Shown here piece after piece: positions 5,505 to 59,454 of a DNA stretch of 64,000 nucleotides. This stretch comes from Zopfochytrium polystomum (taxonomy: Eukaryota > Chytridiomycota > Chytridiomycetes > Chytridiales > Chytridiaceae): contig JAIVFJ010000042.1 in NCBI GenBank assembly GCA_025765615.1, positions 62,001 through 126,000 of the forward strand, given 5' to 3'. The position numbers were made by a program, and so were the translations under genes. The number at the start of each line of letters is the position of its first letter. Position 1 is the first letter of the stretch. The notes beneath the pieces are model-generated. The model was given only the letters and a program-made list of their open reading frames with translations. It was not told the origin of the DNA and ran no database searches.

Positions 5505-8061
5505 CTCAACAGTGTTGCAAGGTAGTTGATGCCGTCATGGATTGCCTGGTACAGTCTCTGATTTCCAGTTGCTTTGTCCATCCTACGTGGCTGAAGATTG
5601 AGGGCAGTTACTGCAGTGCGGTTGTTGATAATGTTGGCGTGGCATTGAAGTAACTCCTTGATATAGGCTTTCTAGTGTAAGAAGATTCCGTTATGGTGAT
5701 GTTCCAGCTGCATAAAAAGTATGGTTTTTGATTGCTCCCATTTTGCAGAGTTTGTAACAAGATTAGGCAAGGCAATGGCAGAGGAAGTTTTGCCATAATC
5801 ACCAAAAAAAATATTGTAAACTTAGCTTGCAGTGTGGATGATGCGCCAGTCAATTGACAAAGAAGGATGCAGTGGTCTTCCAGAAGATTGTACTTTCCTG
5901 ACAACTGTTTGATTTGGGTGGCTGTTCGTCTCGTGCACTCAGGGTTGTGGTAATGAACTGTTCCATGCAGATTGGCACATAAAATATGCTGTTGAGGTAT
6001 GTGTTGCTGATATCAACTGTGTCAGTGTCCCAGTTGATTCAGGCAGCTATTTCAGTGAGTAAAAGACTATTTATTTGGAGAAAAGGTGAGTGAGTATTCT
6101 GAATATCAATGCAGTGACACTAAGTGGGGCCTTTAGCCATGAGCCATGCATAGAAGCACTCAATGCTGCTGTCTTCACAAAGTTTGACCTTGTAGACCCA
6201 TTTGTTCCAGATAATGTTGACATTGGTGGGTTGTTCAATAACTTCAAAGGCTGTCTGCTCATATACAAGGGTCTGGGCAAGGTGTGCTTGTCAAACACAG
6301 TTGGCCTGAATGTGTACCCTTTGCAGCGTTGTCAGATGGTGGCAACAGCTGATGTGGTTCTGATGGAATTTTGCCTGAAGGTAAGAAGTTTGTGGTGGAT
6401 TCCTAATTTTAAAGTGTTATGTTTGTTTTGTTGTTGTAGAGAAATAGAATCTACTTGTGATGGTTTTAACTTTAAGAAACTTAAGGGAAATTAGTTCAGA
6501 TTTTCTAAGATACCCTGCACACAAAAGAAAGCACAAGAGAAAACTCTGAACAGGTGAGCCTTCCGCACGAAGCTGGTCTGGGCTCCCCCCAGTACCCTAT
6601 GAGGAGAGGCGACCACTCCCCCATACACAGCTTGCCCTCAACGCTTTCCCCTGCGTCTCGCCTGGGCACATCAGGAGAATAACTGTCTCCTGGTTGGTAC
6701 TCCTTGCGGAATGGGCTCCCTGCTCAGGACTCCACCTCCTCTGACACAGGTCCAGGCCACACTAGCCTACAAGCTGGGACTTCGGTGTTCGTGGGCCTTC
6801 GGTTGATTTCACATTGCCGGTCTGCCACATCGGTCCGGCCTTCCACAGTCATGCCTATAGTGCTCCCAGTAAGGCCCACTGGGTGTGACGTTAATTGCAG
6901 TAGCACGGAATCCAACCCGTCGTGCCGTTACCTCCAACACCAGAGCTGTACACCGTTATCCGATTCACTTTTGCTGTGGATTACCATTTGGTTGATACTT
7001 TTTACCAATTCCAGTTTGACTTCTTCCAATTCTGATTGCTGAAGTTGAATGTTGACTGAATGGAGGAAGCAGTTGTTTTCTGCAGTGACTCTGGTGTGGG
7101 GAATGGTTGATGCTTTGTCTGACTTTGTTGAGACAGCAGAAAACTGAAAGCAATTCCAATTCAACTTGTTCAACTGGCAAAATTCAAGTTCAAAGATGGT
7201 TCAAGGTGACTGGTGACTGAATGGAGCAAAGTGGTGATGTTGGTGTTGTTTCTGAAGCTGATCTGCAGGAATGAATAGTTGAAGGTTTCCTGAATTTGGC
7301 TGAGATTGCTGAGGTTTGAATAGTTTGATGATATGGTAATTGTAACTGTGTGTGAGGTGGTTGATTTTTGTTTTTGTTGGTCAAGAGTGGAAATAAAGAT
7401 AGAGACAAAGTTAGTGGTAGAAAGCATTTGTGAGAGTTAGTATATCCAGATGTTTCCACAGAGTTTGATTGCTTGATGATGATTTGCCTTTAGTCTCCAA
7501 CTGATGTTGTGGAATTTATGCTGGTAGAAGAGTGTTAGTGCAAGCAAAGGGAACAAAGACTTAGCCTGATGTCTTCTACTCTGCCTCGTTAAAGAATCAG
7601 CAGAATGTTTTTGTCAAGTCTAACATCCAAGCCAAAACCACAAAGTTTCTGGTCAGATTACAAAAGTTGAGGGCAATCTCTGAAGCTTCTAGATCCTGGT
7701 TATGCTGCATGAATGAATGAGGCATTCAAAGAACATAGCTGTTCTGGAGTGACTCTATTAAGAGCAGTTTGAAATCTAGAGTCAGTTAGATTTGGTTTGG
7801 CTAAGGAAGAATCTTAGATGAGAATGGAACTTCAGTAATCTTGCAAGGTTGAGCTTGTTTATAGTTTGCTCTGAAAAAGTGTTAGTGTTGAGTGTCCAAT
7901 AAAGATAAACGTTGATACTCCTCGGAATGAGGCAAAAGTTATTTCAAGGAACATTGTGTTTTGTCACAGAAGTTGGTTAGGATAATTCATGAGGGTCAAG
8001 GTGAGGATTCAGGTATGGCTGTGGAATTTCCTGTGATGTGGGACTTGGTGTAGTGTGTTAG
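5505..8061 (-). mobile_element. outer copia-like element, left part (copy 1)
   Basis: This segment is about 90% or more similar by eye to 9090-11850 inside the inner element. The shared blocks are the gttgcaaggtagttgatg block, the ggtgagtattctgaatat block (6085/9903), the ggtgagccttccgcacga block (6551/10317) and the gatgatttgcctttagtctcc block (7478/11245). It is interrupted at 8061/14511 by the inner element, flanked by GTTAG on both sides, and resumes at 14511. It holds no intact protein gene, only an open frame at 6090-6494 that recurs in the second copy. The element reads on the minus strand because the gag-like and RNase H-like parts of its relatives do. Confidence 0.7.
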
Positions 8062-8290
8062 TGAAAGAATTTGCTATGTTGGCTGATTGATGGGTTGGGC
8101 TGCTGTGGTGTACACTACTGAAGGTGGTGGTGGTGGGAGGTTGATCTTGGCTTCTGTCAGTCTTGTGTTTGTCTTTATACAAAACTGTTACAAGGACCAT
8201 CACTTGCAAAATGCTGCAAGTCATCCTTGCAGAGCAGTATCAGGTCAAAGCTCCTGCACACTGCTTACACCAAAAGACCCAAAACTAACA
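8062..8290 (-). repeat. 3' LTR of the inner copia-like element
   Basis: The LTR is 229 bp, TG..CA on the minus strand, directly preceded in element sense by a purine tract and followed by the duplication GTTAG. It appears identical to 14277-14505. Confidence 0.88.
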
Positions 8291-8409: not shown

Positions 8410-9085
8410 TCAGATGGCAGAACAGAAAGAACAGACCACACTAACAAAAATGGATGGGGGCACATATTGAACTTCAGAGGTAAAAGAATATGAGTCAAAG
8501 TAGTGAAAAAGAACAAAGAAGAAAACAGCTTCACAGATAAGAAAAGATGAATCAGAGGAAGAGAAGAAACAAAGACCAGTGCGACTCAGATGGTATTCAC
8601 TGAGAGCTGCTGAGAGAGATTTTGTCATATAGTCTGCAGGCTGTTCTCCCCCTGCAATCCACTCAAGCCGTACTACTTTTTGTTCCACGAGTTCTCGAAT
8701 ATAATGATACTTTACCATGATATGCTTTGACCGATTGGTGTAAAGACCATTTGAACTGAGGTTGATCACACTGCTGTTGTCAGTGTAGATGACAAGAGGA
8801 GTGGGAGACGGAAGTTGAAGTGCTGAATAGAGTTGGGACAGTGCCTTAAGTTCTCGTCCCAGTTCAGACACAGCTACATATTCAGCTTCCTGCGGTGACA
8901 GCATGACAGTGAAGAGATGTCCAACTAATAGCTGTTCCTCCAAATAGAACATAGTAGCCAGGCTGTGATTTCCCATTATTACCATTGAGATATTCGAGAA
9001 CCAGAATAAGGATCTTCATGTGTTGCTCGCTAGGATCCTTGCTGAAGGCACCAAGATATGAAACTGCTGGGGCAAGGCCTGGTCG
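8410..9085 (-). pseudogene. Ty1/copia reverse-transcriptase tail and RNase H remnant
   Basis: Reading leftward from 9085, one frame gives APAVSYLGAFSKDPSEQH and ILVLEYLNG, the end of a copia RT. A frame change near 8900 is followed by PQEAEYVAVSELGRELKAL, YTDNSSVINLSSN, RSKHIMVKYHYIRELVE and EWIAGGEQPADYMTKSL. These are the copia RNase H landmarks: E of AEY, D of the TDN motif and the C-terminal AD.MTK box. The Met at 8985 is only an open-frame boundary. Polymerase motifs with the YVDD box are absent, because upstream of 9085 the element switches to non-coding repeat. It is decayed and cannot work alone. Confidence 0.85.
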
Positions 9086-9752: not shown

Positions 9753-12700
9753 AGTGCGGCGGTAATGAACTGCTCGATGCAGATTTGGCATATAAAATAT
9801 GCTGTTGAGGTATGTGTTGCTGATATCCTCTGTGCCAGTGTCCCAGTTGATTCAGGCAGCCATTTCAGGGAGTTAACAAAGACTATTGATTAGGACAAGA
9901 GGTGGGTGAGTATTCTGAATATAAATGCAATGACACTAAGTGGGGCCCTTAGCCATGAGCTGTGCATAGAAGCACTCAATGCTGCTGTCTTCACAAAGTT
10001 TGACCTTGTAGACCCATTTGTTCCAGGTTTTGTTGACATTCGTGGGTTGTTCAATAACTTCAAAAGCTGTCTGCACATATACATGGGTCTGGGCAAGGTG
10101 TGCTTGTCAAACACAGTTGGCCTGAATGTGTACCCTTTGCAGCGTTGTCAGATTGTGGCAACAGCTGATGTGGTTCTGATGGAATTTCGCCTGAAGGTAA
10201 GAAGTTTGTGGTGGATTCTTGTGATGGTTTTAACTTTAAGAAACTTTAGGGAAATTAGTTCAGATTTTCTAAGACACCCTGCACACAAAAGAAAGCACAA
10301 GAGAAAACTCTGAACAGGTGAGCCTTCCGCACGAAGCTGGTCTGGGCTCCCCCCAGTACCCTATGAGGAGAGGCGACCACTCCCCCATACACAGCTTGCC
10401 CTCAACGCTTTCCCCTGCGTCTCGCCTGGGCACATCAGGAGAATAACTGTCTCCTGGTTGGTACTCCTTGCGGAATGGGCTCCCTGCTCAGGACTCCACC
10501 TCCTCTGACACAGGTCTGGGCCACACTAGCCTACAAGCTGGGACTTCGGTGTTCGTGGGCCTTCGGTTGATTTTACATTGCCGGTCTGCCACATCAGTCC
10601 GGCCTTCCACAGTCATGCCTATAGTGCTCCCAGTAAGGCCCACTGGAGGTGATGTTAATTGCAGTAGCACGGAATCCAACCCGTCGTGCCGTCACCTCCA
10701 ACACCAGAGCTGTACACCGTTATCCGATTCACTTTCACTGTGGATTACCATGTGGTTGATACTTTTTACCAATTCCAGTTTAACTTCTTCCAATTCTGAT
10801 TGCTGAAGCTGAATGCTGACTGAATGGAGGAAGTTGTTGTTTTCTGGAGTGACTCTGCTGTGGGGAATGGTTGATGCTTTGTCTGACTTTGTTGAGACTG
10901 CAGAAAACTGAAAGCAACTCCAATTCAACTTGTTCAACTGGCAAAATTCAAGTTCAAAGATGGTTCAAGGTGACTGGTGACTGAATGGAGCAAAGTGGTG
11001 ATGTTGGTGTTGTTTCTGAAGCTGATCTGCAGGAATGAATAGTTGAAGGTTTCCTGAATTTGGCTGAGATTGCTGAGGTTTGAATATTTTGATGATATGG
11101 TAATTGTAACTGTGTGTGAGGTGGTTGATTATTGTTTTTGTTGGTCTAGAGTGGAGAATAAAGATAGAGACAAAGTTAGTGGTAGAAAGCATTAGTGAGA
11201 GTTAGTATATCCAGATGTTTCCACAGAGTTTGATTGCTTGCTGATGATTTGCCTTTAGTCTCCAAGTGATGTTGTGGAATTTATGCTGGTAGAAGGGTGT
11301 TAGTGCAAGCAAAGGGAACAAAGACTTAGCCTGATGTCTTCTACTCTGCCTCGTTAAAGAATCAGCAGAATGTTTTTGTCAAGTCTAACATCTAAGCCAA
11401 AACCACAAAGTTTCTGGTCAGATTACAAAAGTTGAGGGCAATCTCTGAAGCTTCCAGATCCTGGTTATGCTGCATGAATGCATGCTGGATGAATGCATGA
11501 GGCATTCAAAGAACATAGCTGTTCTGGAGTGACTCTATTAAGAGCAGTTTGAAATCTAGAGTCAGTTAGATTTGGTTCGGCTAAGGAAGAATCTCAGATG
11601 AGAATGGAACTTCAGCAATCTTGCAAGGTTGAGCCTGTTTATAGTTTGCTCTGAAAAAGTGTTAGTGTTGAGTGTCCAATAAAGATAAATGTTGATACTC
11701 CTCGGAATGAGGCAAAAGTTATTTCAAGGAACATTGTGTTTTGTCACAGAAGTTGGTTAGGATAATTCATCAGAGTGATGCAATTGAGGTGAGGACTCAG
11801 GTATGGCTGTCAAATTTCCTGTGATGTGGGACCTGGAGTAGTGTGTAAGTATGTCTGTGTATAAAAGCTGAAGCAGTCAATATGTGTGAGTTGAGGTCCC
11901 TAGCCAGGGTGAAGTAAGCCCAGCAATAATAGTGTATTCCATAGTTTGACTCCTGAGTCCAGTTTCATTTGGCTAAAATAGATAGAGTGTTTTCCTAGGC
12001 AGCAGCCTGGCACCAAGAAGACCAGCCAAGTTGGTGCCAATCCATGCTGAGACCACTTTGCAACTCTGCGCTGATGATCATCGTTCACTTATTCCAAGCA
12101 TTCTCCATCTAATTGGCAATACAGTGCCAGTGATCATCTTTCACTTCTCCCTAGAATCCTCCCCCCTAAGTGGAAGATGATGTTTGATGTTGTACTGGGC
12201 GCTGGCTTGTGCTGATGACAAATACTCTGAGTATTAAGTGGAACAGAAACCCAGTGTCAACAGTTTTTCTCCTCCTCTGCTCAAGCAGATAATATATATG
12301 AGAGGTTTTGACCCTGTGCCGGTCACGCTTGCCTAGCAACCACTCAGAATAGACTGTTTACAAAATGGTTAGAGGATTGTTAAACTACTCAACCAGTCCT
12401 TGTTCTATCAATGAATGGACTGCAAATTGTCTTTGGCTGAAGTGCTGAAGTTATGTGAGAAAAGATAAAGAGAGGCTTAGCTTGATGTAACAGAGTCCAA
12501 AGTTATGAGGAAATTGCACAAGGTTGCCATGGTTGTGAGAGTTGGCACTTGCACAACTATTGGTCATCCCAATCACTAATATGTTTGATGGTGAGAGTTT
12601 CAGTGTGGTTGAAAACACTCTGATCTCAAAAGTTGGCCATGTCAATGATAATTGTATCAGGGAATCCAGAAATTGAACTGCCAACTCCATGGGTTGATAG

Positions 12701-13001
12701 ACGAGGAAAACACCATATCATTAATTCCTAATTTGTTATGCCCTGTTGAAAATGAGTAAGTATTATTAAGAGGGCACAGGGACAGTTGTTAGAGGTGCAG
12801 GTCTCCGAAAACTAAAATGCCTGTGTTGATGTTCATGGAATGATGAATCATTACTGACAGGAGACTGCATGGCTGAATGCTGAGAGGATAAAGGCAGTTA
12901 CTTTGATGCATATCAAAAGCGAAGAGCAAAACACTTAGCAGATTGATTATTAGTTGATGGAGCTGGTTGGTTTTTGAGGACCTCTGCTGTTTGTTGTTCA
13001 A

Positions 13002-13677
13002 TCAATATGAAGGCAGATAACCAGGATAGTAATAGTTGGTGTGGTGATTTCTGGTGCAGCAGTAGCCGAGTGATTGTTGCTTGATCAGCCAGCTCGATGT
13101 GTTGCTTATCATAGTTGTTTTGTCAAACAGGTTTTTGAAGAGTGAGATTAGTTTGGCTAAGCTTGTTATCTGAGGAGCTGGGTTGCTGACAACAAGAAAA
13201 ACTTTTCCTTTTCCCATATCCAACAGGCTTTGGCCCAGTGAGCCAACAAAGATTCGAACAACTTGTTGGAAAGGGGGAATATGATGGAGAAGTTCTCCAG
13301 CTGCTGACTTTGCAAAGCTGTCGACTCGATGGTACGCTTCAGTGTATTGGGTAATGAAGGCATCTGAGGCTTCAGTTGGTTCCATTTTAATGCATTCAAA
13401 GTCGTCAATGATCTCCTTTGCAAGTTCGACCAGGTGTGATTTGGGTGAGGGCTCGATAGATGTGGCGAGGAATGATTAGACAGCAATGTGCATTCTGGTT
13501 CTGTGCACTAGGAAACCAAGTTACTTTCTCTGGTACACAAGACAGAGGCACCAGTTGGAATCTCTGTCCTTGGAATGGTCCATCTCTGATGAGACAGGTT
13601 CCAGAGTCGCAGAGGTCTAGTGGATCAACTGCATTGTTCTGCTCTGCGTTGATGTGATTGGTTGAGTCAGTAGTCAT
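13002..13677 (-). pseudogene. copia-like gag remnant
   Basis: From an ATG ending at 13677 the minus strand reads MTTDSTNHINAEQNNAVDPL, then GPFQGQRFQLVPL. A frame change near 13400 leads to MEPTEASDAFITQYTEAYHR, SFAKSAAGELLHHI and SLAKLISLFKNLF, ending at a stop near 13002. The same protein segments occur in the plus-strand copy at 49980-50640 and in 56780-56978. That recurrence, and the zinc knuckle after it in the plus-strand copy, identify it as a Gag capsid. In this copy the sequence departs from the plus-strand relative just after the helix containing SLAKLISL, and the zinc knuckle is lost. Confidence 0.65.
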
Positions 13678-14262: not shown

Positions 14263-14276
14263 GTAACAGTTTTGTA
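14263..14276 (-). other. primer-binding site complementary to the element's own LTR
   Basis: The 14 bases directly inside the 5' LTR read TACAAAACTGTTAC in element sense. Their exact reverse complement, GTAACAGTTTTGTA, lies within the LTR (14393-14406), about 100 nt from the LTR start in element sense. I could not match the site to a tRNA 3' end. The geometry is that of a self-primed element if transcription starts near that LTR position. Confidence 0.7.
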
Positions 14277-14505
14277 TGAAAGAATTTGCTATGTTGGCTG
14301 ATTGATGGGTTGGGCTGCTGTGGTGTACACTACTGAAGGTGGTGGTGGTGGGAGGTTGATCTTGGCTTCTGTCAGTCTTGTGTTTGTCTTTATACAAAAC
14401 TGTTACAAGGACCATCACTTGCAAAATGCTGCAAGTCATCCTTGCAGAGCAGTATCAGGTCAAAGCTCCTGCACACTGCTTACACCAAAAGACCCAAAAC
14501 TAACA
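14277..14505 (-). repeat. 5' LTR of the inner copia-like element
   Basis: The LTR is 229 bp and reads TGTTAGTTTTGGG..TTCTTTCA on the minus strand. It appears identical to the LTR at 8062-8290. A TATAAAG follows the 14-nt self-complement at 14388-14406 in element sense. Confidence 0.88.
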
Positions 14506-15732
14506 GTTAGTATGTCTGTGTATAAAAGCTGAAGCAGTCAATATGTGTGAGTTGAGGTCCCTAGCCCGGGTCAAGTAAGCCCAGCAATAATAGTGTATTC
14601 CATAGTTTAACTCCTGAGTCCAGTTTCATTTGGCTAAAATGGATAGAGCGTTTTCCCAAGCCAGCAGCCTGGCACCAAGAAGACCATGCCAAGTTGGTGC
14701 CAATCCATGCTGAGACCACTTTGCAACTCTGTGCTGATGATCATTGTTCACTTATTCCAAGCATCCTCCATCTAATTGGCAATACAGTGCCAGTGATCAT
14801 CTTTCACTTCTCCCTAGAATCCTCCCCCCTAAGTGGAAGATGATGTTTGATGTTGTACTAGGCGCTGGCTTGTGCTGATGACAAATACTCCAAGTATTAA
14901 GTGGAACAGAAACCCAGTGTCAACAGTTTTCCTCCTCCTCTGCTCAAGCAGATAATATATATGAGAGGTTTTTACCCTGTGCTGGTCACGCTTGCCTAGC
15001 AACCACTCAGAATAGACTGTTTACAAAATGGTTAGAGGATTGTTAAACTACTCAAAGTTATGAGGAACTTGCACAAGGTTGCCATGGTCGTGAGAGTTGG
15101 CACTTGCACAACTATTGGTCATCCCAATCACTAATATGTTTGATGGTGAGAGTTTCAGTGTGGTTGAAAACACTCTGATCTCAAAAGGTGGCCATGTCAA
15201 TGATAATTGTATCAGGGAATCCAGAAATTGAACCGCCGACTCCATGGGTTGATAGACAAGGAAAACACCATATCATTAATTCCTAATTTGTTATGCCCTG
15301 TTGAAAATGAGTAAGTATTATTAAAAGGGCACAGGGACAGTTGTTAGAGGTGCAGGTCTCCAAAAACTAAAATGCCTGTGTTGATGTTCATGGAATGATG
15401 AATCATTACTGACAGGAGACTGCATGGCTGAATGTTGAGAGGGTAAAGGCAGTTACTTTGATGCATATCAAAAGAGAAGAGCAAAACACTTAACAGATTG
15501 AGTATTAGTTGATGGAGCAAGTTGGGTTTTGAGGACCTCTGCTGTTTGTTCTTTAATTGATATGAAGAAGCAGATAACCAGGATAGTAACAGTTGGTGTG
15601 GTGATTTCTGGTGCAGTAGTAGCTGAGTGATTGTCGCTTTGATGGGCCAACTAGATGTGTTGCTTATCATAGTTGTTTTGTCAAACAGGTTTTTGAAGAG
15701 TGAGATTAGTTTGGCTAAACTTGTTATCTGAG
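14506..15732 (-). mobile_element. outer copia-like element, right part, ending in broken gag
   Basis: It starts with the second GTTAG and continues exactly where 8061 stopped, judged against the uninterrupted relatives near 11850-13150 and 55675-56820. It includes the gaggattgttaaactactc block (15035) and ends inside the gag-like frame, at the block attagtttggctaaacttg. There the chromovirus begins (15733). The expected rest of gag is not found on the far side of the chromovirus. Confidence 0.7.
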
Positions 15733-16085
15733 TGTTATGAATCACCCTCTGGAAACCTCTGGAACCTTCTAGAACATTCCTTCATGGAACCTTCTGGAAC
15801 CTTCTGGAACCTTCTAGAACATTCCTTCATGGAACCTTGTGGAACCTTCTGGAACCTTCTTTGCTTTCCTGACTTGTCTTGTTGTCATTGGTATCATTGG
15901 TATCATTGCATTACTAATTGCTCTTTCTGGAACTTTCTTGGAGTCTTGACAAGGAACACTCTCAAAAGGTATAAAAGGGGGATGGGGGACCTGTCCCATC
16001 CCTCAAGTGAATTATTGTTTCCAATACAATCATCACTCCTCTCAGTTCCTTGTCTGCCTTGTCCTGTCCTGCCCTGTTCCTGACA
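15733..16085 (+). repeat. 5' LTR of the chromovirus
   Basis: The LTR is 353 bp, TG..CA. Near its start it holds repeated ggaaccttctagaacattcc units, with one 55-bp block more than the 3' LTR. TATAAAA is at 15970-15976. Confidence 0.9.
15970..15976 (+). promoter_or_regulatory. TATA box of the chromovirus LTR
   Basis: TATAAAA lies 35 bases upstream of 16005, where the 11-nt sequence complementary to the primer site begins. A start of transcription at about 16000-16005 would put that sequence at the very 5' end of the RNA. Confidence 0.7.
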
Positions 16086-16087
16086 TC

Positions 16088-16098
16088 ATAATTCACTT
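16088..16098 (+). other. self-complementary primer-binding site of the chromovirus
   Basis: Two bases after the LTR, ATAATTCACTT is the exact reverse complement of AAGTGAATTAT at 16005-16015 in the LTR. In Tf1 and its relatives, 11 nt of the RNA 5' end anneal to such a site and prime reverse transcription without a tRNA. The length and position match that mechanism. Confidence 0.85.
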
Positions 16099-16125
16099 CA
16101 CCCTCTCCCACTACTCTCTGCCATC

Positions 16126-17049
16126 ATGTCTGACCCAAACAACACCTTCCCTGATGCAACTGCCTTCCAAGCCTTGATGGACCAATTACAAGCCCTCTCA
16201 AGACAGACACACCAACTTCAAGAACAAGTCCTTCACCAGCAGCACCAGCTTCAACAACAACTTCACCAACAAGAACATCAAGCTCTTCCCCTGCCTCAAG
16301 CCAACCAAGCAAGAGAGCCCAAGGTTCCCAGCCCTGACAAGTTCACTGGGCTGGCCAAAGACCTTAGGAACTTCATGGCCACTGTGGAGAATGTCATCCT
16401 TCTCCAACCTTCAAGATTTCCCAGTGAGCAAGTCAAGGTTCTTTTCACAAGCACCCTCCTGTCTGGTCAAGCTCAATCATGGTACAGATCTCTCCCAAGC
16501 ACACCCACCACCCTGCAAGAGCTCTGGGAGGGGCTGGAAGCTACCTTTGGTGACCCCTACGCATCTTGGACAGCAAGATCCAAGCTCAAGCATATCAAGC
16601 AAGGAAAGCAATCTTGTGTGGCCTACACCAACCAATTCAAGCAACTAGCCAGAGACTCTGGATACAATGATGCAGCTCTGATGGAGCTGTACCATGATGG
16701 TCTCCATGAGTCTATCCAAGACATGCTCTCCCAGTCTCTGCACATCCCTGAGACCTTGGAAGAGTACATTCTCCTTGCCATCAAGATTGACAACAGACTC
16801 TACTCCAAGAGGCTGAAGCAAAGACAAGTAGGAACTACATCAAGACCTACCCCAGTTCCTCAAGCTCTCACAGTTCCTGAACCCATGCAAGTGGATGCAG
16901 TTGAGACACTTCCTAAGGGTCCTCTGAGCCAAGAGGAGAAAGCAAGGAGGGCCCAGCAGGGACTGTGTTTTTACTGTGGCTCCAAGGAGCATGCTGTCAA
17001 GGACTGCCCAAGGAAGAAGCACCCAAACTCCCAGGTCCAGGCTCACTGA
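16126..17049 (+). CDS. gag: chromovirus Gag
   Basis: The 307-residue structural protein forms the particle and packages the RNA. The ATG at 16126 follows the primer site and a CT-rich leader. Residues about 15-60 are Gln/His-rich and probably coiled-coil. A retrotransposon Gag capsid domain follows at about 65-200, with the QSWYRSL and F..KYAS-like region (YASWTARSKLKHIKQG). A CCHC zinc knuckle C281-X2-C284-X4-H289-X4-C294 lies near the end. The stop is at 17047-17049. Ribosomes that slip by -1 at 17022-17028 bypass it to make Gag-Pol. The frame is intact. Confidence 0.93.
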   Translation: MSDPNNTFPDATAFQALMDQLQALSRQTHQLQEQVLHQQHQLQQQLHQQEHQALPLPQANQAREPKVPSPDKFTGLAKDLRNFMATVENVILLQPSRFPSEQVKVLFTSTLLSGQAQSWYRSLPSTPTTLQELWEGLEATFGDPYASWTARSKLKHIKQGKQSCVAYTNQFKQLARDSGYNDAALMELYHDGLHESIQDMLSQSLHIPETLEEYILLAIKIDNRLYSKRLKQRQVGTTSRPTPVPQALTVPEPMQVDAVETLPKGPLSQEEKARRAQQGLCFYCGSKEHAVKDCPRKKHPNSQVQAH

Positions 17050-17067
17050 GGGGCAATTCCCTGGACC
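17022..17067 (+). promoter_or_regulatory. -1 programmed ribosomal frameshift signal
   Basis: The heptamer C CCA AAC (17022-17028) fits X XXY YYZ in the gag frame. Five bases later, GGTCCAGG (17034-17041) can pair perfectly with CCTGGACC (17060-17067) across an 18-nt loop. The pol frame is exactly -1 to gag and has no in-frame ATG in the overlap that would serve as a start. Sushi elements and their domesticated descendant PEG10 use the same strategy. Confidence 0.85.
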
Positions 17068-20000
17068 CTCCTCCAAGCTGCCCCTGTTTCATCACCACCA
17101 CCAGCACCACAAACACCTCAGATTCCAAGCCCCACCAACTCACCATGGATGTCAAGATTCAACTCTCACCCAAGTCAACCATCACAGCCAAGGCCCTTAT
17201 AGACTCTGGATCATCCTGCAACATCATTGATGCCACCCTTGCCAAGTCTTGTGCCATTCCTACGATCAAGAAATCCACACCCCTCAAGGTCCACTTTGCC
17301 AATCATGCTCTGTTCAAGGAAATCAGCCATGAAACCAAGCTAAACCTCCACATCCAAGACTTTCCACCATCCATGGTCAATCTGGAAGTATTGGATCTTG
17401 GCTCACCCACATTCTCTGTCATCCTGGGATTACCATGGCTGCAAGCCCAGAACCCTGCCATTGATTGGGTCACTGGTCAAGTCCAACCTCCACCAATCGG
17501 AACAGTCACCCAAAACTCAAGTCAAGCCCCCAAGTCTCATGCTCTCAAGCCCTTGATTCAAGATTCACAGCCAGCCAAGACTCAAGTTCCACAGTTCACA
17601 GTTCACAGTCAAGATTCAAGTAGAGCTCATAGAGCTCACAGTCATGGCCATGACTCTTGTTCACAGAACCCACAGTCAAAGATTCAAGTACCACAGTTCA
17701 CAGTCCACATTCAAGATTCAAGTTCCACAGCTCACAGTCTTTGCCAAGAACAGAACTCTCAGTCAAAGATTCAAGAATCACAGTTCCCAGTCAAGAATTC
17801 AAGCCCCACTGCTGAGGAGCACGACAACCTGGACCCATCAGACCTTTTGCTGGCATCCAAGCTACCAAAGGAATATCTCCCTTATGCTGATGTGTTTTCC
17901 AAGACCAAGGCAGACCTGCTACCAGCTCAGAGGCCTTATGACTGTGAAATCCCACTCAAGGATGAAACTTGCAGCCCACCTTTCAAGCCACTGTACCACC
18001 TCTCTCCACCAGAAGCCAAGGCCCTCCAAGAATACATTGAAGAAATGCTGAACAAGGGATTCATGCAACCTTCCAAGTCACCAGCTGGAGCTCCCATCTT
18101 TTTTGTCAAGAAGAAGGATGGGGGACTGAGACCCTGTGTGGACTACAGAGATCTCAATGAGATGACAGTCAAGAACCGCTATCCACTGCCTCTCATCTCT
18201 GAATTACTGGACAAACTGAGCCATGCAAGGATATTTTCCAAGATTGACCTCAGAGGTGCCTACAATTTGGTCAGAATTAAGCCCCAGGATCAATGGAAGA
18301 CTGCCTTCAGATGCAAATACGGTCACTTTGAGTACTTGGTTATGCCCTTTGGACTTACCAATGCTCCAGCTATTTTCCAAGGCATGATGAATGACATCTT
18401 CAGGGATATTCTGGACCTTTTTGTCATTGTCTACCTGGATGATATCCTGGTATTTTCATCTGACACTGCAAGCCATATGGGACATGTCAAGACTGTCTTG
18501 GAGAGACTCAGACAGCATCACCACTATGCAAAGCTGGAGAAGTGTGAATTCCACAAGACCTCCATTGAGTTTTTGGGGTTCATTGTGTCTGACAAAGGGA
18601 TCTCCATGGCACCAGACAAGATCCAAACTATTCTTGAATGGAAGGCTCCAAATTCCATCAAGGATGTTCAAAGCTTCCTTGGGTTTTGCAACTTCTACAG
18701 AACCTTCATTGCCAACTATTCTGCCATAGCCAAGCCTCTCACTGATCTCACCAAGAAGACCACCAAGTTTGAATGGACCCCAGCAGCAGAGCAAGCCTGG
18801 CTAGCTCTTAAGACAGCAACCACAAGTGCACCACTCCTTAAGCATGTGGATCCCTTGCTTCCCTTCACCTTGGAAACTGATGCCTCAGACTATGCCCTTG
18901 GCGCTGTTCTGTCCCAGCCAAGCTCTCAGGACCCCTCTGCTCCTCTGCATCCAGTGGCATATTACTCCAGGAAGCTGAACAGTGCTGAGTGTAACTACAC
19001 AGTCCATGACAAGGAGTTGCTTGCAATTGTGGAAGCATTCAAATACTGGAGACACTACTTGGCTGGTTCTAAAGGCATATCTGTCTATTCTGATCACAAG
19101 AACCTCACCTTCTTCAGGGCAAGGAGGTTGCTCAAGCAGAGGCATGCCAGGTGGGCTGAACTGCTCCCTGAGTATGACTTTAAGCTGTGCTATTCTCCTG
19201 GCCACCTTAACACTGTGGCTGATGCCCTGTCAAGAAGAACAGACCTTGCACCTGAAGGGGGAGATGGTTTCACCCCACCATCCAAGACACACCTTTCATT
19301 GCTTCCTGACAGTGTGTGGGCCCATGCTATTTCCAAGGACCCCAAGCCTCACAAGATTCAAATCAGCCAAGAAGAGGAAAAACTTGAGATACTCAAGACA
19401 AGGCATGATACAGCAACAGCTGGACACCCAGGAGAGCACAAAACATATGAGCTTGTTTCCAGAGACTTCTACTGGCCAGGCATGAGGAAGTACATCAAGA
19501 ACTATGTCAGCAGCTGTGAAACCTGTCAAAGAAACAAATCCAGCAGACACAAGCCCTATGGACTTCTGGAGCCCCTCCCAATTGCCATCAGCCCTTGGTC
19601 ATCAATATCCATGGACTTCATTGTGAAACTGCCCCCATCCCATGGATTTGACTCTATCCTTGTTGTCATCTGCAGAAGGACAAAGTTGGCCCATTTCATC
19701 CCCTGCACTGAGAATATAGATGCACAAGGAACAGCAGACCTGTTTTTGCAGCACATATTCAGGCTCCATGGGCTGCCTCAGTCAATCATCAGTGACAGAG
19801 GACCACAGTTCAGATCTCAATTTTGGAAAGCACTCACAGCAGCCCTTGGAATCAAGTCTCAACTGTCAACTGCTTATCACCCTCAGACTGATGGACAAAC
19901 AGAAAGAACAAACCAGACTCTGGAGCAGTATTTGAGGTGCTATGTCAGCTATCAACAGGATGATTGGCCCACCCTCCTTCCACTGGCAGAATTTACTCTC

Positions 20001-20684
20001 AACAATTCTCTCCACTCAAGCACCCAGCTATCTCCTTTCTTTGCAACCTATGGCTTCAATCCAAGAGGAGATCTTCTGGGACAAGAGACCCTATCCAATT
20101 TCCAAGCTCCTGCTGCGGCTTCACACTTGCATAAGCTCAAGATCATCAGCACCTTCCTGGACTCCACCCTGAAGCGAGCCCAAGAAGATGCCTCAAGATT
20201 TGCCACCACTCACAGAATGGACCATGACCTTGCTGTGGGTCAGCAAGTTTGGCTTCTGAGGAAGAACTTGCAGACCAAAAGACCAAGTCCCAAGCTAGAC
20301 AACCTCAAGTTGGGACCTTTCAAGATCTTGGAGCAAATCAATCCAGTCACCTTCAAGCTGGATCTCCCTGCATCCATGAAGATCCACCCAGTTTTCCATG
20401 TCAGCCTTTTGGAGAAGTTTGTGGCCAATTCCATTCCAGGCAGAGTTGTTCCTCCTCCTCCTCCAGTTGAGGTAGAAAGTGAAGAGGAATTTGAGGTTGA
20501 ACAAATCTTGGATGCCAAGTGGTTTGGAAGGACACTCAAGTTCCTTGTTAAGTGGAAAGGTTACTCAGATGCTGACAACACCTGGGAACCTGAGTCAAAC
20601 CTCACTCACTGCCAAGACCTTCTGCTCAAGTTCAAGACCAGGTACCCCACCAAGTTGCAGAAGAGGCCTAAAAGGGGGAGATGA
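17028..20684 (+). CDS. pol: chromovirus Pol: protease, reverse transcriptase, RNase H, integrase, chromodomain
   Basis: Made as Gag-Pol by the -1 shift. Residue numbers count from the start of the open frame at 16965. Protease: D80-S-G (ALIDSGSS). RT: YRDLNEM and the polymerase box YLDD with D492/D493. RNase H: first acidic residue D639 in ETDASDYALG. Integrase: zinc site H821, H825, C851, C854 and catalytic D884, D944, E980 with the D-X35-E spacing, then a GPY/F-like module (LGPFKILEQINPVTFKLDLP). Chromodomain: about 1174-1226, with KFLVKWKGYSDADNTWEPE; the aromatic residues expected to bind methyl-lysine are present. The chromodomain is expected to steer insertion to marked chromatin. The frame is unbroken to TGA at 20682-20684. 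Confidence 0.95.
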   Translation, partial: LPGPGSLRGNSLDPPPSCPCFITTTSTTNTSDSKPHQLTMDVKIQLSPKSTITAKALIDSGSSCNIIDATLAKSCAIPTIKKSTPLKVHFANHALFKEISHETKLNLHIQDFPPSMVNLEVLDLGSPTFSVILGLPWLQAQNPAIDWVTGQVQPPPIGTVTQNSSQAPKSHALKPLIQDSQPAKTQVPQFTVHSQDSSRAHRAHSHGHDSCSQNPQSKIQVPQFTVHIQDSSSTAHSLCQEQNSQSKIQESQFPVKNSSPTAEEHDNLDPSDLLLASKLPKEYLPYADVFSKTKADLLPAQRPYDCEIPLKDETCSPPFKPLYHLSPPEAKALQEYIEEMLNKGFMQPSKSPAGAPIFFVKKKDGGLRPCVDYRDLNEMTVKNRYPLPLISELLDKLSHARIFSKIDLRGAYNLVRIKPQDQWKTAFRCKYGHFEYLVMPFGLTNAPAIFQGMMNDIFRDILDLFVIVYLDDILVFSSDTASHMGHVKTVLERLRQHHHYAKLEKCEFHKTSIEFLGFIVSDKGISMAPDKIQTILEWKAPNSIKDVQSFLGFCNFYRTFIANYSAIAKPLTDLTKKTTKFEWTPAAEQAWLALKTATTSAPLLKHVDPLLPFTLETDASDYALGAVLSQPSSQDPSAPLHPVAYYSRKLNSAECNYTVHDKELLAIVEAFKYWRHYLAGSKGISVYSDHKNLTFFRARRLLKQRHARWAELLPEYDFKLCYSPGHLNTVADALSRRTDLAPEGGDGFTPPSKTHLSLLPDSVWAHAISKDPKPHKIQISQEEEKLEILKTRHDTATAGHPGEHKTYELVSRDFYWPGMRKYIKNYVSSCETCQRNKSSRHKPYGLLEPLPIAISPWSSISMDFIVKLPPSHGFDSILVVICRRTKLAHFIPCTENIDAQGTADLFLQHIFRLHGLPQSIISDRGPQFRSQFWKALTAALGIKSQLSTAYHPQTDGQTERTNQTLEQYLRCYVSYQQDDWPTLLPLAEFTLNNSLHSSTQLSPFFATYGFNPRGDLLGQETLSNFQAPAAASHLHKLKIISTFLDSTLKRAQEDASRFATTHRMDHDLAVGQQVWLLRKNLQTKRPSPKLDNLKLGPFKILEQINPVTFKLDLPASMKIHPVFHVSLLEKFVANSIPGRVVPPPPPVEVESEEEFEVEQILDAKWFGRTLKFLVKWKGYSDADNTWEPESNLTHCQDLLLKFKTRYPTKLQKRPKRGR
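20670..20684 (+). other. polypurine tract of the chromovirus
   Basis: AAAAGGGGGAGATGA abuts the 3' LTR and overlaps the last codons and stop of pol. It is the expected plus-strand primer. Confidence 0.85.
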
Positions 20685-20982
20685 TGTTATGAATCACCCT
20701 CTGGAAATCTCTGGAACCTTCTAGAACATTCCTTCATGGAACCTTCTGGAACCTTCTTTGCTTTCCTGACTTGTCTTGTTGTCATTGGTATCATTGGTAT
20801 CATTGTATTACTAATTGCTCTTTCTGGAACTTTCTTTGAGTCTTGACAAGGAAGACTCTCAAAAGGTATAAAAGGGGGTTGGGGGACCTGTCTCATCCCT
20901 CAAGTGAATTATTGTTTCCAATACAATCATCACTCCTCTCAGTACCTTGTCTGCCTTGTCCTGTCCTGCCCTGTTCCTGACA
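20685..20982 (+). repeat. 3' LTR of the chromovirus
   Basis: The LTR is 298 bp and closely matches the 5' LTR, apart from the missing 55-bp block and a few substitutions. The base after its CA end does not repeat the left flank. Confidence 0.9.
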
Positions 20983-43608: not shown

Positions 43609-47237
<3,629 letters not shown>

Positions 47238-47502: not shown

Positions 47503-49072
47503 TGTTAGTTTTGGGTCTTTTGGTGTAAGCAGTGTGCAGGAGCCCTGACCTGATACTGCTCTGCAAGGATGACTTGCAGCATTTTGCAAGTGATGGTTCT
47601 TGTAACAATTTTGTATAAAGACAAACACAAGTGCGAGACTGCACTGAGGTCTCAGTGATAAAGTCTGGCGTTATCAAAGTGTATTTGCGGCTAACCTGTC
47701 TTTATTACTGGGCCTGCTTTTACTACTTTTGTCTTAACACTTTCCGTTGCACCAGGGTTTTCTCAACATATTTTCTTTTTGGTGACTAATTGAGACTGCC
47801 TGACTGCCTAGGGATGGGGTGTGTGACAGGCCATACCCCAAGCCCACCTAATTTATTATTTATTTTCGGCGCTTGTACATACACATATAGGGTTGGGGGG
47901 ACTTAGAGCGTTTGTGGTGGATGCTCCAAGTCAGGGGGGTTGACTTGTCAATTTTCTCTCTCTCTGTTTTTGGGCCATTTCTCTTTTTCCTTTTTTCTTC
48001 AATCTGATTTCTGTCCATTGGCACCAATGCAGAGTCCCTTCAAATCCATCTGGCTCACAACAGCGAGGGTAGCAAGAGGTGGTATGCACCCAGGTGAGTA
48101 CATGGTCCCTTCGGGGGCTCCTCTTAAGGGGCTGCAGGTGAGAAATGCAGCTGGCCCCACCACCAACTGTGTGACTCTGCTGGCTCTGTGTTGGAGTGAG
48201 GACCACAGGTGCTTGCCTGCTGCAGAGGCGACAGCAGTGGCATCGTCGACCCTGCAAGGGTGTTGGTGGCTGCGCCATGCGCAGTCCCTGACACCTGAGA
48301 GTTTGATTTATGAGTGCCTGCCTCGGTCCTACTGCTGAGAGTGAGATGTGCGAGTACGAGTTCGATGCAATAAAGCCCATTGGTCGAGTGATTGTGCCAA
48401 CGCAGCCCAGCAGGGTGCGTGTACAATCGCAGGTGTTTCCGTGTGCGAGTTCCCTGCTGGTGACCTTCCAACCCCAACATAGTTGACTCCATTCTCTCTC
48501 TTCCCCCCATTGCTGGCAACGACAAGGGCTCCCACAGCACTGTCCGCGACGAGGGGTGCTAGGTTGCACCTGGTCCGTCCTGTTGCTATTAACTGCTCCT
48601 GTTGTATTTGAGATTAGGTTCCTGAGATAAAAACCCCTGTTTCCCTTCTCTCTCTTTATTCTGCGGTTGTGTTGCACCCTTGGGAGTGCTCTTCCGTTTC
48701 CCCTCACATCAGCCCGCAGCCACGTGAGTAAATGGTGCTCCAGCACCAATCCCTCAGAGGATTGTCCCTCTGAATGTTCATTCTTTGTGTTTGAACCCCT
48801 GTTAGACAGATCAGTAGGGATACTTCGTGGACTAGGCAACTAGTAGGGTTGAAACACCCCCTAGACAACAGCCCAATAAAATTAGTTTAGCCTAATATTT
48901 GCTTCCCCTCCCTCTAGAGCCCAGATCCCGGGGTCAAAGGAGTGAGTAAAGTCTCACACAAGACTGAGAGAAGCCAAGATCAACCTCCCACCACCACCAC
49001 CTTCAGTAGTGTACTACCTCCATCTCCACAGTAGCACAACCCATAGACAATCCAGCCCAATGAATTCTTTCA
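47503..49072 (+). repeat. 5' LTR of a plus-strand copia-like element, split by a family A LTR
   Basis: It begins TGTTAGTTTTGGGTC and ends AATTCTTTCA, as in the 229-bp LTR at 14277-14505, but is interrupted at 47632-48958 by a family A LTR. The 14-nt self-complement is at about 47602-47615 with one difference (gtaacaattttgta). The primer site TACAAAACTGTTAC follows at 49073-49086. Confidence 0.85.
47632..48958 (+). repeat. solo LTR of family A, TSD CAAG
   Basis: The ends are TGCGAGACTGCACTGAGG and AGTAAAGTCTCACA, flanked by CAAG (47628-47631 and 48959-48962). It sits inside a copia-like LTR whose uninterrupted form is known from 14277-14505, so the empty site is directly visible. It lacks about 110 bp relative to the other copies. 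Confidence 0.9.
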
Positions 49073-53506: not shown

Positions 53507-53520
53507 GTCACAATTTTGTA
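53507..53520 (-). other. self-complementary primer site of the second copia-like LTR family
   Basis: In element sense it reads TACAAAATTGTGAC. The exact reverse complement is inside its LTR (53638-53651 on the opposite reading). It differs at two positions from the site of the first family, and both are matched by changes inside the LTR. Confidence 0.7.
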
Positions 53521-53758
53521 TGAAGGAAATGACAGCTGCTGATTGTTGATGGTGGTGAGCTACTCTGGTGGACTTCTCTCTTGTGATGGTGAAGCTGAGG
53601 TGGGAGACTGTTGAACAATGTGAGCTGTTTGGCTTTATACAAAATTGTGACAAAGACCAGGTAACAAACAAATCCTCCTCACAGTTGGTGCTCTCATGTA
53701 CCACAGTGTGAGGTGTTGCTCCTGCACACTGCTTACTGCAAAAACCCAAAATCTAACA
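53521..53758 (-). repeat. LTR of a diverged copia-like family (5' LTR, minus sense)
   Basis: It is 238 bp; on the minus strand it starts TGTTAGATTTTGGG and ends CATTTCCTTCA. It is a clear relative of the 229-bp LTR, with the same order of blocks (tgcaggagc, the 14-nt motif, ctttatac), but most of the sequence has changed. Confidence 0.75.
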
Positions 53759-55150
53759 GCACGATGCTGGTCTGGGCTCCCCCCAGTACCCTATGAGGCG
53801 AGGCGACCACTACCCCATACAGAGCTTGCCCTCAACACTTTCCCTGCATCTCACCTGGGCACATCATGAGAATAACTGTCTTCTGGTTGGCGCTCCTCAC
53901 AGAATGGGCTCCCTGCTCAGGACTCCACCTCCTCTGACACAGGTCCGGGCCACACTAGCCTACGAGCTGGGACTTCTGTGTTCGTGGGCCTTCGGTTGAT
54001 TTACATCAGCTGGTCTGCCACCCTGGCCCACCCTTCCTCAGTCCTGCCTATAGTGCTCCCAGTAAGGCCCACTGGAGGTGACGTTAATTGCAGTAGCACA
54101 GAATCCAACCCATTGTGCTGTCACCTCCAACACCAGAGCCGTTATCCAATTCACTTTTGCTGTGGATTACCATGTGGTTGATACTTTTTACCAAATTCCA
54201 GTTTAACTTCTTCCAATTCTGATTGCTGAAGTTGAATGCTGACTGAATCGAGGAAGTTGTTGTTTTCTGGAGTGACTCTGCTGTGGGGAATGGTTGATGC
54301 TTTGTCTGACTTTGTTGAGACTGCAGAAAACTGAAAGAAATTCCAATTAAACTTGTTCAACTGGAAAAATTCAGGTTCAAAGATGGTTCAAGGTGACTGG
54401 TGACTGAATGGAGCAAAGTGGTGGTGATGTTGGTGTTGTTTCTGAAGCTGATCTGCAGTTATGAATGGTTGAAGGTTTTCCTGAATTTTGCTGAGACTGC
54501 TGCAGATTGAATAGTTTGATGATGTGGTGATTGCAACGACTGTGTGTGAGGTGGTTGATTTTTGTTTTTGTTGGTCAAGAGTGGAGAATAAAGATAGAGA
54601 CAAAGTCAGCGGTAGTAAGCATTAGTGAGAGTTAGTATATCCAGATGTTTTCACAGAGCTTGATTGTTTGATGATGATTTGCCTTTAGTCTCCAATTGAT
54701 GTTGTGGCATTAATGCTGGTAGAAGCGTGTTAGTGCAAGCAAAGGGAACAAAGACTTAGCCTGATGTCTTCTACTCTGCCTTGTTAAAGAATCAGCAGAA
54801 TGTTCTTGTCAAGTCTAACATCCAAGCCAAAACCACAAAGTTTCTGGTCAGATTACAAAAGTTGAGGGCAATCTCTGAAGCTTCTAGATCCTGGTTATGC
54901 TGCATGAATGAATGAGGCATTCAAAGAACATAGCTGTTCTGGAGTGACTCTATTAAGAGGAGTTTGAAATCTGAGAGTCAGTTAGATTTGGTTTGGCTAA
55001 GGAAGAATCTTAGATGAGAATGGAACTTCAGTAATCTTGCAAGGTTGAGCTTGTTTATAGTTTGCTCTGAAAAAGTGTTAGTGTTGAGTGTCCAATAAAG
55101 ATAAATGTTGATACTCCTCATATGAGCCAAAAGTTATTTCAAGGAATATT

Positions 55151-55562
55151 TGTTAGGTGGAACTGACTGGTTAGCCGCAAGAGGCACAAAACAGACTCAA
55201 ACCTATTGTGACTGTCAGTTATTGTTCTCACGATGCCCATGGGAGAGCGAGCCACCGCCAATGCAGACCTGGGCGCTCGCTTGCACTTATGCCAAATACT
55301 CCGAGTATTAAGTGGAACAGAAACCCAGTGTCAACAGTTTTCCTCCTCCTCTGCTCAAGCAGATAATATAGGAGAGGTTTTTACCCTGTGCCAGTCATGC
55401 TTGCCTAGCAACGATTCCAGTGTGTATATCATCATCATGTATCAATAATTCATAACAGAGTTTTTCTCTTTCTCTCCAAGTTGGGGAGAAGGACCACCCA
55501 CAAACACACATCTCCACTTCATTCACTCTTTCCACTCACTCACTCAGAGTAGACTGTTTACA
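55151..55562 (+). repeat. solo LTR of family Y, TSD ACATT
   Basis: The sequence runs from TGTTAGGTGGAACTGACTGG to AGAGTAGACTGTTTACA. Flanks are ATATT (55146-55150) and ACATT (55563-55567). The two sister copies have the uninterrupted caaggaacattgtg at 7949 and 11729, which gives the empty site. Confidence 0.82.
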
Positions 55563-56978
55563 ACATTGTGTTTTGTCACAGAAGTTGGTTAGGATAATTC
55601 TTCAGAGTGATGCAATTGAGGTCAGGACTCGTATGGCTGTGGAATTTCCTGTGATGTGGGACCTGGTGTAGTGTGTTAGTATGTGTGTATAAAAGCTGAG
55701 GCAGTCAGCATGTGTGAGTTGAGGTCCCTAGTCAGGGTCAAGTAAGCCCAGCAATAATAGGGTATTCCATAGTTTGAATACTGATGAGTCCAGATTCATT
55801 TGGCTAAAGTGGATAGAGTGTTTTCCCAAGTCAGCAGCCTGGCACCAAGAAGACCATGCCAAGTTGGTGCCAATCCATGCTGAGACCACTTTGCAACTCT
55901 GTGCTGATGATCATCGTTCACTTATTCCAAGCATCCTCCATCTAATTGGTGATACAGTGCTGATGATCATCTTTCACTTATCCCAAGCATCCTCCCCCCT
56001 GAGTGGAAGATGATGTTTGATGTTGTACTGGCAAAATGGTTAGAGGATTGTTAAACTACTCAACCAGTCCTTCTTCTATCAATGAATGGACAGCAAATTG
56101 GCTGAAGTTATGTGAGGAAAGATAAAGAGAGGCTTACCCTGATGTAACAGAGTTCAAAGTCATGAGGAAATTGCACAAGGTTGCCATGGTTGTGAGAGGT
56201 GGCACTTGCAAAACTATTGGTCATCCCAATCACTAATATGTTTGATAGTGAGAGTTTCAGTGTGGTTGAAAACACTCTGATCTCAAAAGGTGGCCATGTC
56301 AATGAAAATTGTATCAGGGAATCCAGAAATTGAACCGCCAACTCCATGGGTCGATGGGCGAGGAAAACACCATATCATTAGATCCTAATTTGTTATGCCC
56401 TGTTGAAAATGAGAAAGTATTATTAAAAGGGCACAGGAGCGGTTGTTAGTGGTGCAGGTCTCCAAAAACTGAAATGCCTGTGTTGATGTTCATGGAATGA
56501 TGAATCATTACTGACAGTAGACTGCATGGCTGTATGTTGAGGGGATAAAGGCAGTTACTTTGATGCATATGAAAAGAGAAGAGCAAAACACTTAGCAGAT
56601 TGATTATAAGTTGATGGAGCAAGTTGGGTTTTGAGGACCTCTGCTGTTTGTTCTTCAATTGATAAGAAGAAGCAGATAACCAGGATAATAACAGTTGTGA
56701 TGATTTCTGGTGCAGTAGTCGTTGAGCCTTTGTCACTTTGATTGGCCAGCTCGATGTGTTGCTTACCATAGTTGTTTTGTCACACTGGTTTTTGAAGAGT
56801 GAGATTAGTTTGGCTAAACTTGTTATCTAAGGAGCTTGGTGCTGACAACAAGAAAAATTTTTCCTTTCCCCATATCCAACAGGCTTTGGCCCAGTGAGCC
56901 AACAAATATTCAAACAACTTGTTGGAAAGGGCGAATATGATGGAGAAGTTCTCCAGCTGCTGACTTTGCAAAGCTGTC

Positions 56979-58432: not shown

Positions 58433-59225
58433 TGTCAACTTGATGGTACGCTTTGGTGATCAGGTAATGAAGGCATCTGAGGTTTCTTTTCTCTTGTCCA
58501 TGAGGCGGAGGCACCAATTGGAATCTCTGTCGTTGGAATGGTCCATCTCTGATGAGAGAGGTTGCAGTGTCGCGGAGGTCTAGTGGATCAACTGCATCGT
58601 TCTGCTTTGGTTGAGTCAGTAGTCATGTTGTTTTCTCAGGACGATTATGTGTGCCAAGTTTGAAAGGATTTCATTGGATTTTGGGTGTATTGTGAAGGTG
58701 GTGTTGCAGCAAATGAAAAGTTGGTTTGTTAGCTTGGTGTGTGTCAGGTAGTGGGGTGGTCGTTGTCTCCAATTGGGGACAAAAAATCAAAAATTAATGG
58801 TGAGGGTTGGAGGTAATCTGGTGACCCTCAATGGAAAAAGGCGTCGCTTATCACAAAGGATAGTGATTTTGGGATGCCGCTGGTGACAGTCGTGTAGTCC
58901 AGAAGCAGGCCTTTCCAATGATAGCTTGGGATTGGCTGGGGAAGTCTGGAAGGCGAGCAAATTGAGGTTGAAGTTGGAAAAGTGGGCGACGACTTTGGAG
59001 GTGGTGGATACAACATAGGAGCATCAGATACGAGATCAGGAGGGTTTGTTGGAAAGAGGAGATCAAGAGCTTTCCAATGGTAGTAACGAAATTGCTGTCC
59101 AATGTCTGTAGCGCCCGTGATCGGTCCGTAAAGTTGGCAGATCTGAAAAGCGTACAACTCCTTCTACTGATTGGATCTGGCTGGAACCAAGGGGGATGTG
59201 ATTGTGGATGGATAACAGTTTTGTA

Positions 59226-59454
59226 TGAAAGAATTCGCTATGTTGGCTGAATGATGGTTTGGGCTGCTGTGGTGTACACTACTGAAGATGGTGGTGGTCG
59301 GAGGTTGATCTTGGCTTCTGTCAGTGTTATGTTTGTCTTTATGCAAAACTGTTACAAGGACCATCACTTGCAAAATGCTGCAAGTCATCCTTGCAGAGCA
59401 GTATCAGGTCAAAGCTCCTGCACACTGCTTACACCAAAAGACCCAAAACTAACA
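59226..59454 (-). repeat. 5' LTR of the third copia-like copy
   Basis: It is 229 bp and nearly identical to 14277-14505. Two bases of the 14-nt self-complementary pair have decayed (tgcaaaactgttac in the LTR, ataacagttttgta at 59212-59225). Confidence 0.85.

Follow-up and report, generated by a model that had tools for sequence, protein, structure and literature searches.

The stretch of Zopfochytrium polystomum DNA that was analysed (64,000 nucleotides, referred to as the window) contains an LTR retrotransposon on the minus strand, which runs from 14505 to 8062 and is bounded by two mutually identical LTRs of 229 bp. Both LTRs begin with TG and end with CA, and a 5-bp target duplication, CTAAC, is found at each outer end. 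Related copies lie elsewhere in the window, one of them belonging to a sister subfamily designated E. The features are as follows (PBS, primer-binding site):

14277 to 14505, minus strand: 5' LTR, 229 bp, identical to 8062-8290, with the target duplication CTAAC at 14506-14510
8062 to 8290, minus strand: 3' LTR, 229 bp, with CTAAC at 8057-8061 and the purine run AGGGGGGAG immediately ahead of it
14263 to 14276, minus strand: putative PBS TACAAAACTGTTAC, adjoining the 5' LTR on the inside at offset 0
14393 to 14406, minus strand: LTR site GTAACAGTTTTGTA (LTR positions 100-113), the predicted self-primer, exact complement of the PBS
8413 to 9015, minus strand: ORF containing a stretch similar to copia RNase H, which shares 97% identity over 117 aa with the RT-RNase H ORF of a related copy, L090
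49073 to 49086, plus strand: PBS of the third copy, exact
47602 to 47615, plus strand: LTR site belonging to the third copy, with a single mismatch
59212 to 59225, minus strand: decayed PBS of the fourth copy, 12/14 match to its own LTR site
59342 to 59355, minus strand: decayed LTR site of the fourth copy, 12/14 match to its own PBS
53521 to 53758, minus strand: LTR of the subfamily E copy, sharing 89% identity with the E LTR of locus L099 over 246 columns
53507 to 53520, minus strand: PBS of the E copy, TACAAAATTGTGAC, 14/14 with its own LTR site
53638 to 53651, minus strand: LTR site of the E copy, GTCACAATTTTGTA, 14/14 complementary to its own PBS

The initial annotation had pointed to an exact 14-nt reverse complement of the PBS inside the 5' LTR, and this was borne out (14/14) within a genuine LTR that has an identical mate and target duplications. 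The pairing reaches one base beyond the PBS, since the final A of the LTR also pairs (pair 15-146), and the chance expectation of a 14-nt match in a 229-nt LTR is about 8e-7 if equal base frequencies are assumed. The reported recurrences were likewise found, with an intact PBS in the third copy, whose mismatch lies in the LTR site and whose LTR is interrupted by other DNA (pieces 47503-47631 and 48947-49072), and with 12 of 14 positions matching in the fourth. The pair in the E copy had been missed by that annotation and is fully complementary with a different sequence.

The element is inserted in a repeat (5949-8061 and 14506-15732), which it splits at 8061/14506. This repeat recurs within the interior of the element (9761-13174) and at 53759-56978, and the end of the sister-subfamily LTR at 53758 meets the start of the third repeat copy at 53759 exactly. 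The window also holds a DHX16-like helicase ORF (44972-45979), which over 76% of its length shares 91% identity with a protein of Rhizoclosmatium globosum.

On its own the window ORF at 8413-9015 matched no Pfam family, and no RVT_2 match was listed in the window copy. The related copy L090, located on contig C8 between LTR and PBS sites of the window family, has a 577-aa ORF with an RVT_2 match at 1.9e-53, and the highest-ranking named matches to its RT come from Chytriomyces confervae (46%), a result that, like the helicase match, points to a chytrid as the likely host. No Pfam match was obtained with a second inner piece (L089). The predicted assignment of the window family to Ty1/copia thus rests on the 97% identity over 117 aa between the window ORF and the RNase H part of the RVT_2-bearing L090, and the copia-like label given earlier is upheld through this relative and not through any Pfam match of the window ORF itself.

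Exact matches to the 14-mer were counted in the 80 Mb genome and amounted to 587 (281 + 306), as compared with one match for the reversed control. The first 100 listed of these matches (contigs C1-C24) were all LTR or PBS sites of the window family, comprising 57 LTR and 25 PBS sites identified by their flanks, three sites in loci read earlier and 15 sites that were fetched (13 LTR and two PBS). On the same contigs, 23/25 rows with the exact W-type PBS had an intact LTR row 100-160 nt away. At two loci three LTRs follow each other with a spacing of 6173-6174 bp (C82:95358-107932 and C4:131574-144149), forming tandem arrays of the element, and at two others LTRs abut an inverted or direct partial LTR (C13:148598-148919 and C156:25401-25794). 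A scan of viral contigs found no relative.

The sister subfamily E of the same genome has GTCACAATTTTGTA as its LTR site and TACAAAATTGTGAC as its PBS, so that 2/14 pairs are changed on both sides. E is taken to be copia too because five cases have an RVT_2 match on the same strand 3-5 kb further downstream (C20, C32, C34, C46 and C53). The E loci were found by searching for LTR-PBS junctions in which any 14 letters were allowed at the PBS, which gave 245 places, and among the 100 junctions listed 32 read TACAAAATTGTGAC or differed from it by one change. Twenty of these 32 loci, chosen by the PBS alone, were fetched with their upstream DNA; 17/20 retain the LTR site and the other three are interrupted by other DNA. 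The LTR site predicted from the E PBS was found exactly in 16/17 loci and with one base off in the remaining one, the pairs were fully complementary in 14/17, and the motif of the other subfamily was found in none. The LTRs of W/F and E are identical in 172/264 columns, and the spacing between LTR site and PBS varies from 121 to 143 nt, yet the pair is kept.

Covariation was examined in an alignment of 39 distinct leaders, identical ones having been dropped and most loci having been fetched because a site matched, in which 98.3% of cells pair, as compared with 30-46% in controls slid by 1-3 columns. The covariation score was 0.143 against a shuffled mean of 0.064 and none of 500 shuffles scored as high, to be read with the warning of the tool that kinship alone can beat shuffles and with two of the five covariation measures not being above the shuffles. 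Pairs with a change on both sides numbered two, a value reached by 494/500 shuffles, and further pair types numbered six, reached by 500/500, so that neither was in excess of the shuffles. The both-sided change at two pairs, present in 15 sequences, represents a single split (15 E versus 24 W/F) and not repeated events. Complementarity was full in 29/39 leaders and incomplete in 10/39. Among 15 loci picked for a deviating site seven keep both sites, with compensation in 0/7, and such copies are read as having decayed after insertion. That single copies decay while the subfamilies stay matched is what would be expected if the match were renewed at each retrotransposition. We consider that the change on both sides between the two subfamilies favours a functional pairing.

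Nearly all LTR elements use a borrowed host tRNA as primer. The PBS of the window element starts with TAC and therefore cannot pair with the CCA at the 3' end of a tRNA, and the element probably primes reverse transcription instead with the LTR stretch, the predicted 5' end of its own RNA. The first base of the LTR stretch would be the start of the RNA, whose 5' stretch would fold back onto the PBS, and a cut after base 14 would free the primer, comparable to the cut after base 11 in Tf1 RNA (PMC7175516). Copying of the primer into plus-strand DNA would rewrite the PBS in every new copy and would account for the perfect match of young copies. The initial annotation had called for folding of the leader RNA, and both leaders gave folds in which the site is closed (z -5.24 and -3.02). 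Copies beginning at the motif, as expected if they were derived from the RNA, were not found; the five places at which the preceding base is not T consist of four point changes and one insertion junction. At one locus (L143) the end of a chromovirus LTR abuts the first base of the copia motif exactly, which is an insertion inside the LTR.

A comparable arrangement is known from the Tf1/sushi-type Ty3 elements (Tf1 of S. pombe and Tj1 of S. japonicus), in which an LTR stretch located at the 5' end of the RNA complements a site just inside the LTR and primes (PMC7175516, PMC4600332). The window element is similar in having a site directly inside the 5' LTR that complements the LTR, 14/14 at offset 0. 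It differs in being copia with 14 nt, whereas Tf1 has a Ty3 RT and an 11-nt primer, and in being known from sequence, while in Tf1 and Tj1 the RNA end and priming were shown or tested. A chromovirus within the window (15733-20982), with a Ty3-type RT and a chromodomain, has a 353-nt LTR in which AAGTGAATTAT lies 35 nt past TATAAAAG and provides an 11-nt complement to a site 2 nt inside the LTR; this element is predicted to be self-primed in the Tf1-type arrangement.

Four other copia families of the genome were represented by one element each. Family A (L092, LTR 249) shows a PBS-like GGGTTACGAGCCC for which the LTR holds no match of at least 7 nt; its site presumably resembles an anticodon arm, and the longest run in 40 tRNA loci was 6 nt. 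Family D (L098, LTR 196) has 8 nt at offset 0 at the spacing of the window family, 129 nt (chance about 0.3%), and its leader folded no better than chance (z -1.14, 26/200 shuffles), so that this complement is only suggestive of a self-priming site. In family B (L094, LTR 791) 8 nt at offset 0 lie 153 nt upstream of TATAAAAG (chance about 1.2%), and the match is probably fortuitous and was rejected as a self-priming site. The LTR end of family C was not found.

A host RNA, for instance an internal tRNA fragment, could act as the primer, with the LTR stretch similar by chance or descent. Half-tRNA priming has been reported for plant copia elements (PMC6317226), the PBS of the fungal element FunCo1 matches an internal region of tRNA-Lys (PMC5445492), and family A provides a case in the same genome of a PBS-like site that lacks an LTR match. 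For the two subfamilies, two host RNAs would be required, each matching both PBS and LTR, and no tRNA context was seen among the first 100 listed of the 587 exact matches. The PBS lacks the TGG start, and the longest run that it shares with tRNA was 6 nt in the 40 tRNA loci fetched from among the 63 scored, an incomplete set in that 63/3977 candidates were scored and that the parsed part (22 names, 18 sequences) covers Met, Trp, Arg, Lys and Ser, with most isoacceptors and perhaps the initiator outside it. The search for a matching tRNA 3' end proposed in the initial annotation was thus carried out in part. Taken together, we regard a host primer as very unlikely. It is also quite unlikely that the sites match by descent or by copying at the DNA level and play no role in priming. 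W/F and E are sisters, so that a single match in their ancestor, followed by a few changes, could account for the match in both; individual copies also lose the match after insertion (0/7 compensated). Such an origin is difficult to reconcile with two positions having changed on both sides while the LTRs fell to 172/264 identical columns, and with the persistence of the pair at variable spacing.

The position of the RNA start bears on a further alternative, in which the pairing is genuine and TATAAAG sets an RNA start about 30 nt further in. The stretch would then belong to U3, so that the RNA would contain it only towards the 3' end, and the pairing would be long-range, with the RNA circularised or the stretch acting as a fragment cut out of U3. 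Both subfamilies conserve TATAAAG, which begins 12 nt into the motif and overlaps the last two bases of the site, and in the chromovirus the matching site lies 35 nt past the TATA box. The doubt raised earlier over this motif stands, as the motif overlaps the site and no TATA-like box (TATA[AT]A with at most one mismatch) was found in the 45 nt upstream of the LTR site in either subfamily. However, TAAAG is also able to pair with CTTTCA at the end of the LTR, which lengthens the helix beyond a bulged C, so that conservation of TATAAAG need not mean a TATA box; RNAalifold likewise paired columns 16-19 with 141-144, four pairs that never covary. In addition, a primer cut from U3 would take away the 3' R that is needed for strand transfer. 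TATAAA is also a variant polyadenylation hexamer. In the two subfamilies the complementarity stops at one and the same base, with T preceding the motif and C following the PBS, as would be expected if the RNA began there. We therefore lean towards another role for TATAAAG than setting a start about 30 nt downstream, and consider a start further in rather unlikely.

The pairing is thus most likely to reflect self-priming with the element's own RNA. For the self-priming suggested in the initial annotation, complementarity in two sister subfamilies with two changes on both sides argues in favour, at the level of sequence, with the tRNA comparison partial and the TATAAAG doubt standing.

Self-priming in copia is not new as an idea, since it has been predicted for the plant Ty1/copia TAR lineage (Houba, Osr-1) from at least 10 complementary bp starting 0-5 bp inside the LTR (PMC6317226). 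By that measure the window element has 14 bp starting at 0, and it is fungal, unlike the TAR lineage of plants. Like the window element, the fungal copia element GalEa has no tRNA-type PBS; it carries a palindromic hairpin site for which the available text reports no LTR complement (PMC5445492), and TACAAAACTGTTAC differs from this hairpin type (CTGATCAGT/CTAATTAGT). Unusual priming was also proposed for the dictyostelid Ty3 element Skipper, which shares the lack of a TGG-type PBS but, as far as the available text goes, has no complementary region in its LTR (PMC5006619), whereas the window element does. In the available text of the literature consulted, the self-primed fungal elements named are of the Tf1 kind and none is copia (PMC5445492, PMC6317226, PMC7175516, PMC3601003, PMC4600332, PMC5006619, PMC2206039, PMC4659654, PMC6934838). 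No predicted self-priming in a fungal copia element was found in the open-licence literature searched, in which plant copia and Ty3 cases were found.

On balance, we favour the view that this chytrid copia lineage has abandoned tRNA priming in favour of its own first 14 nt, and that primer and site have co-evolved into two matched spellings. The presence of both spellings within one genome allows a direct test by site swapping. If true, fungal elements would have switched to self-priming in a second superfamily, and self-priming would have arisen in copia outside plants, beside Ty3 chromoviruses of the same genome that are predicted to be self-primed.
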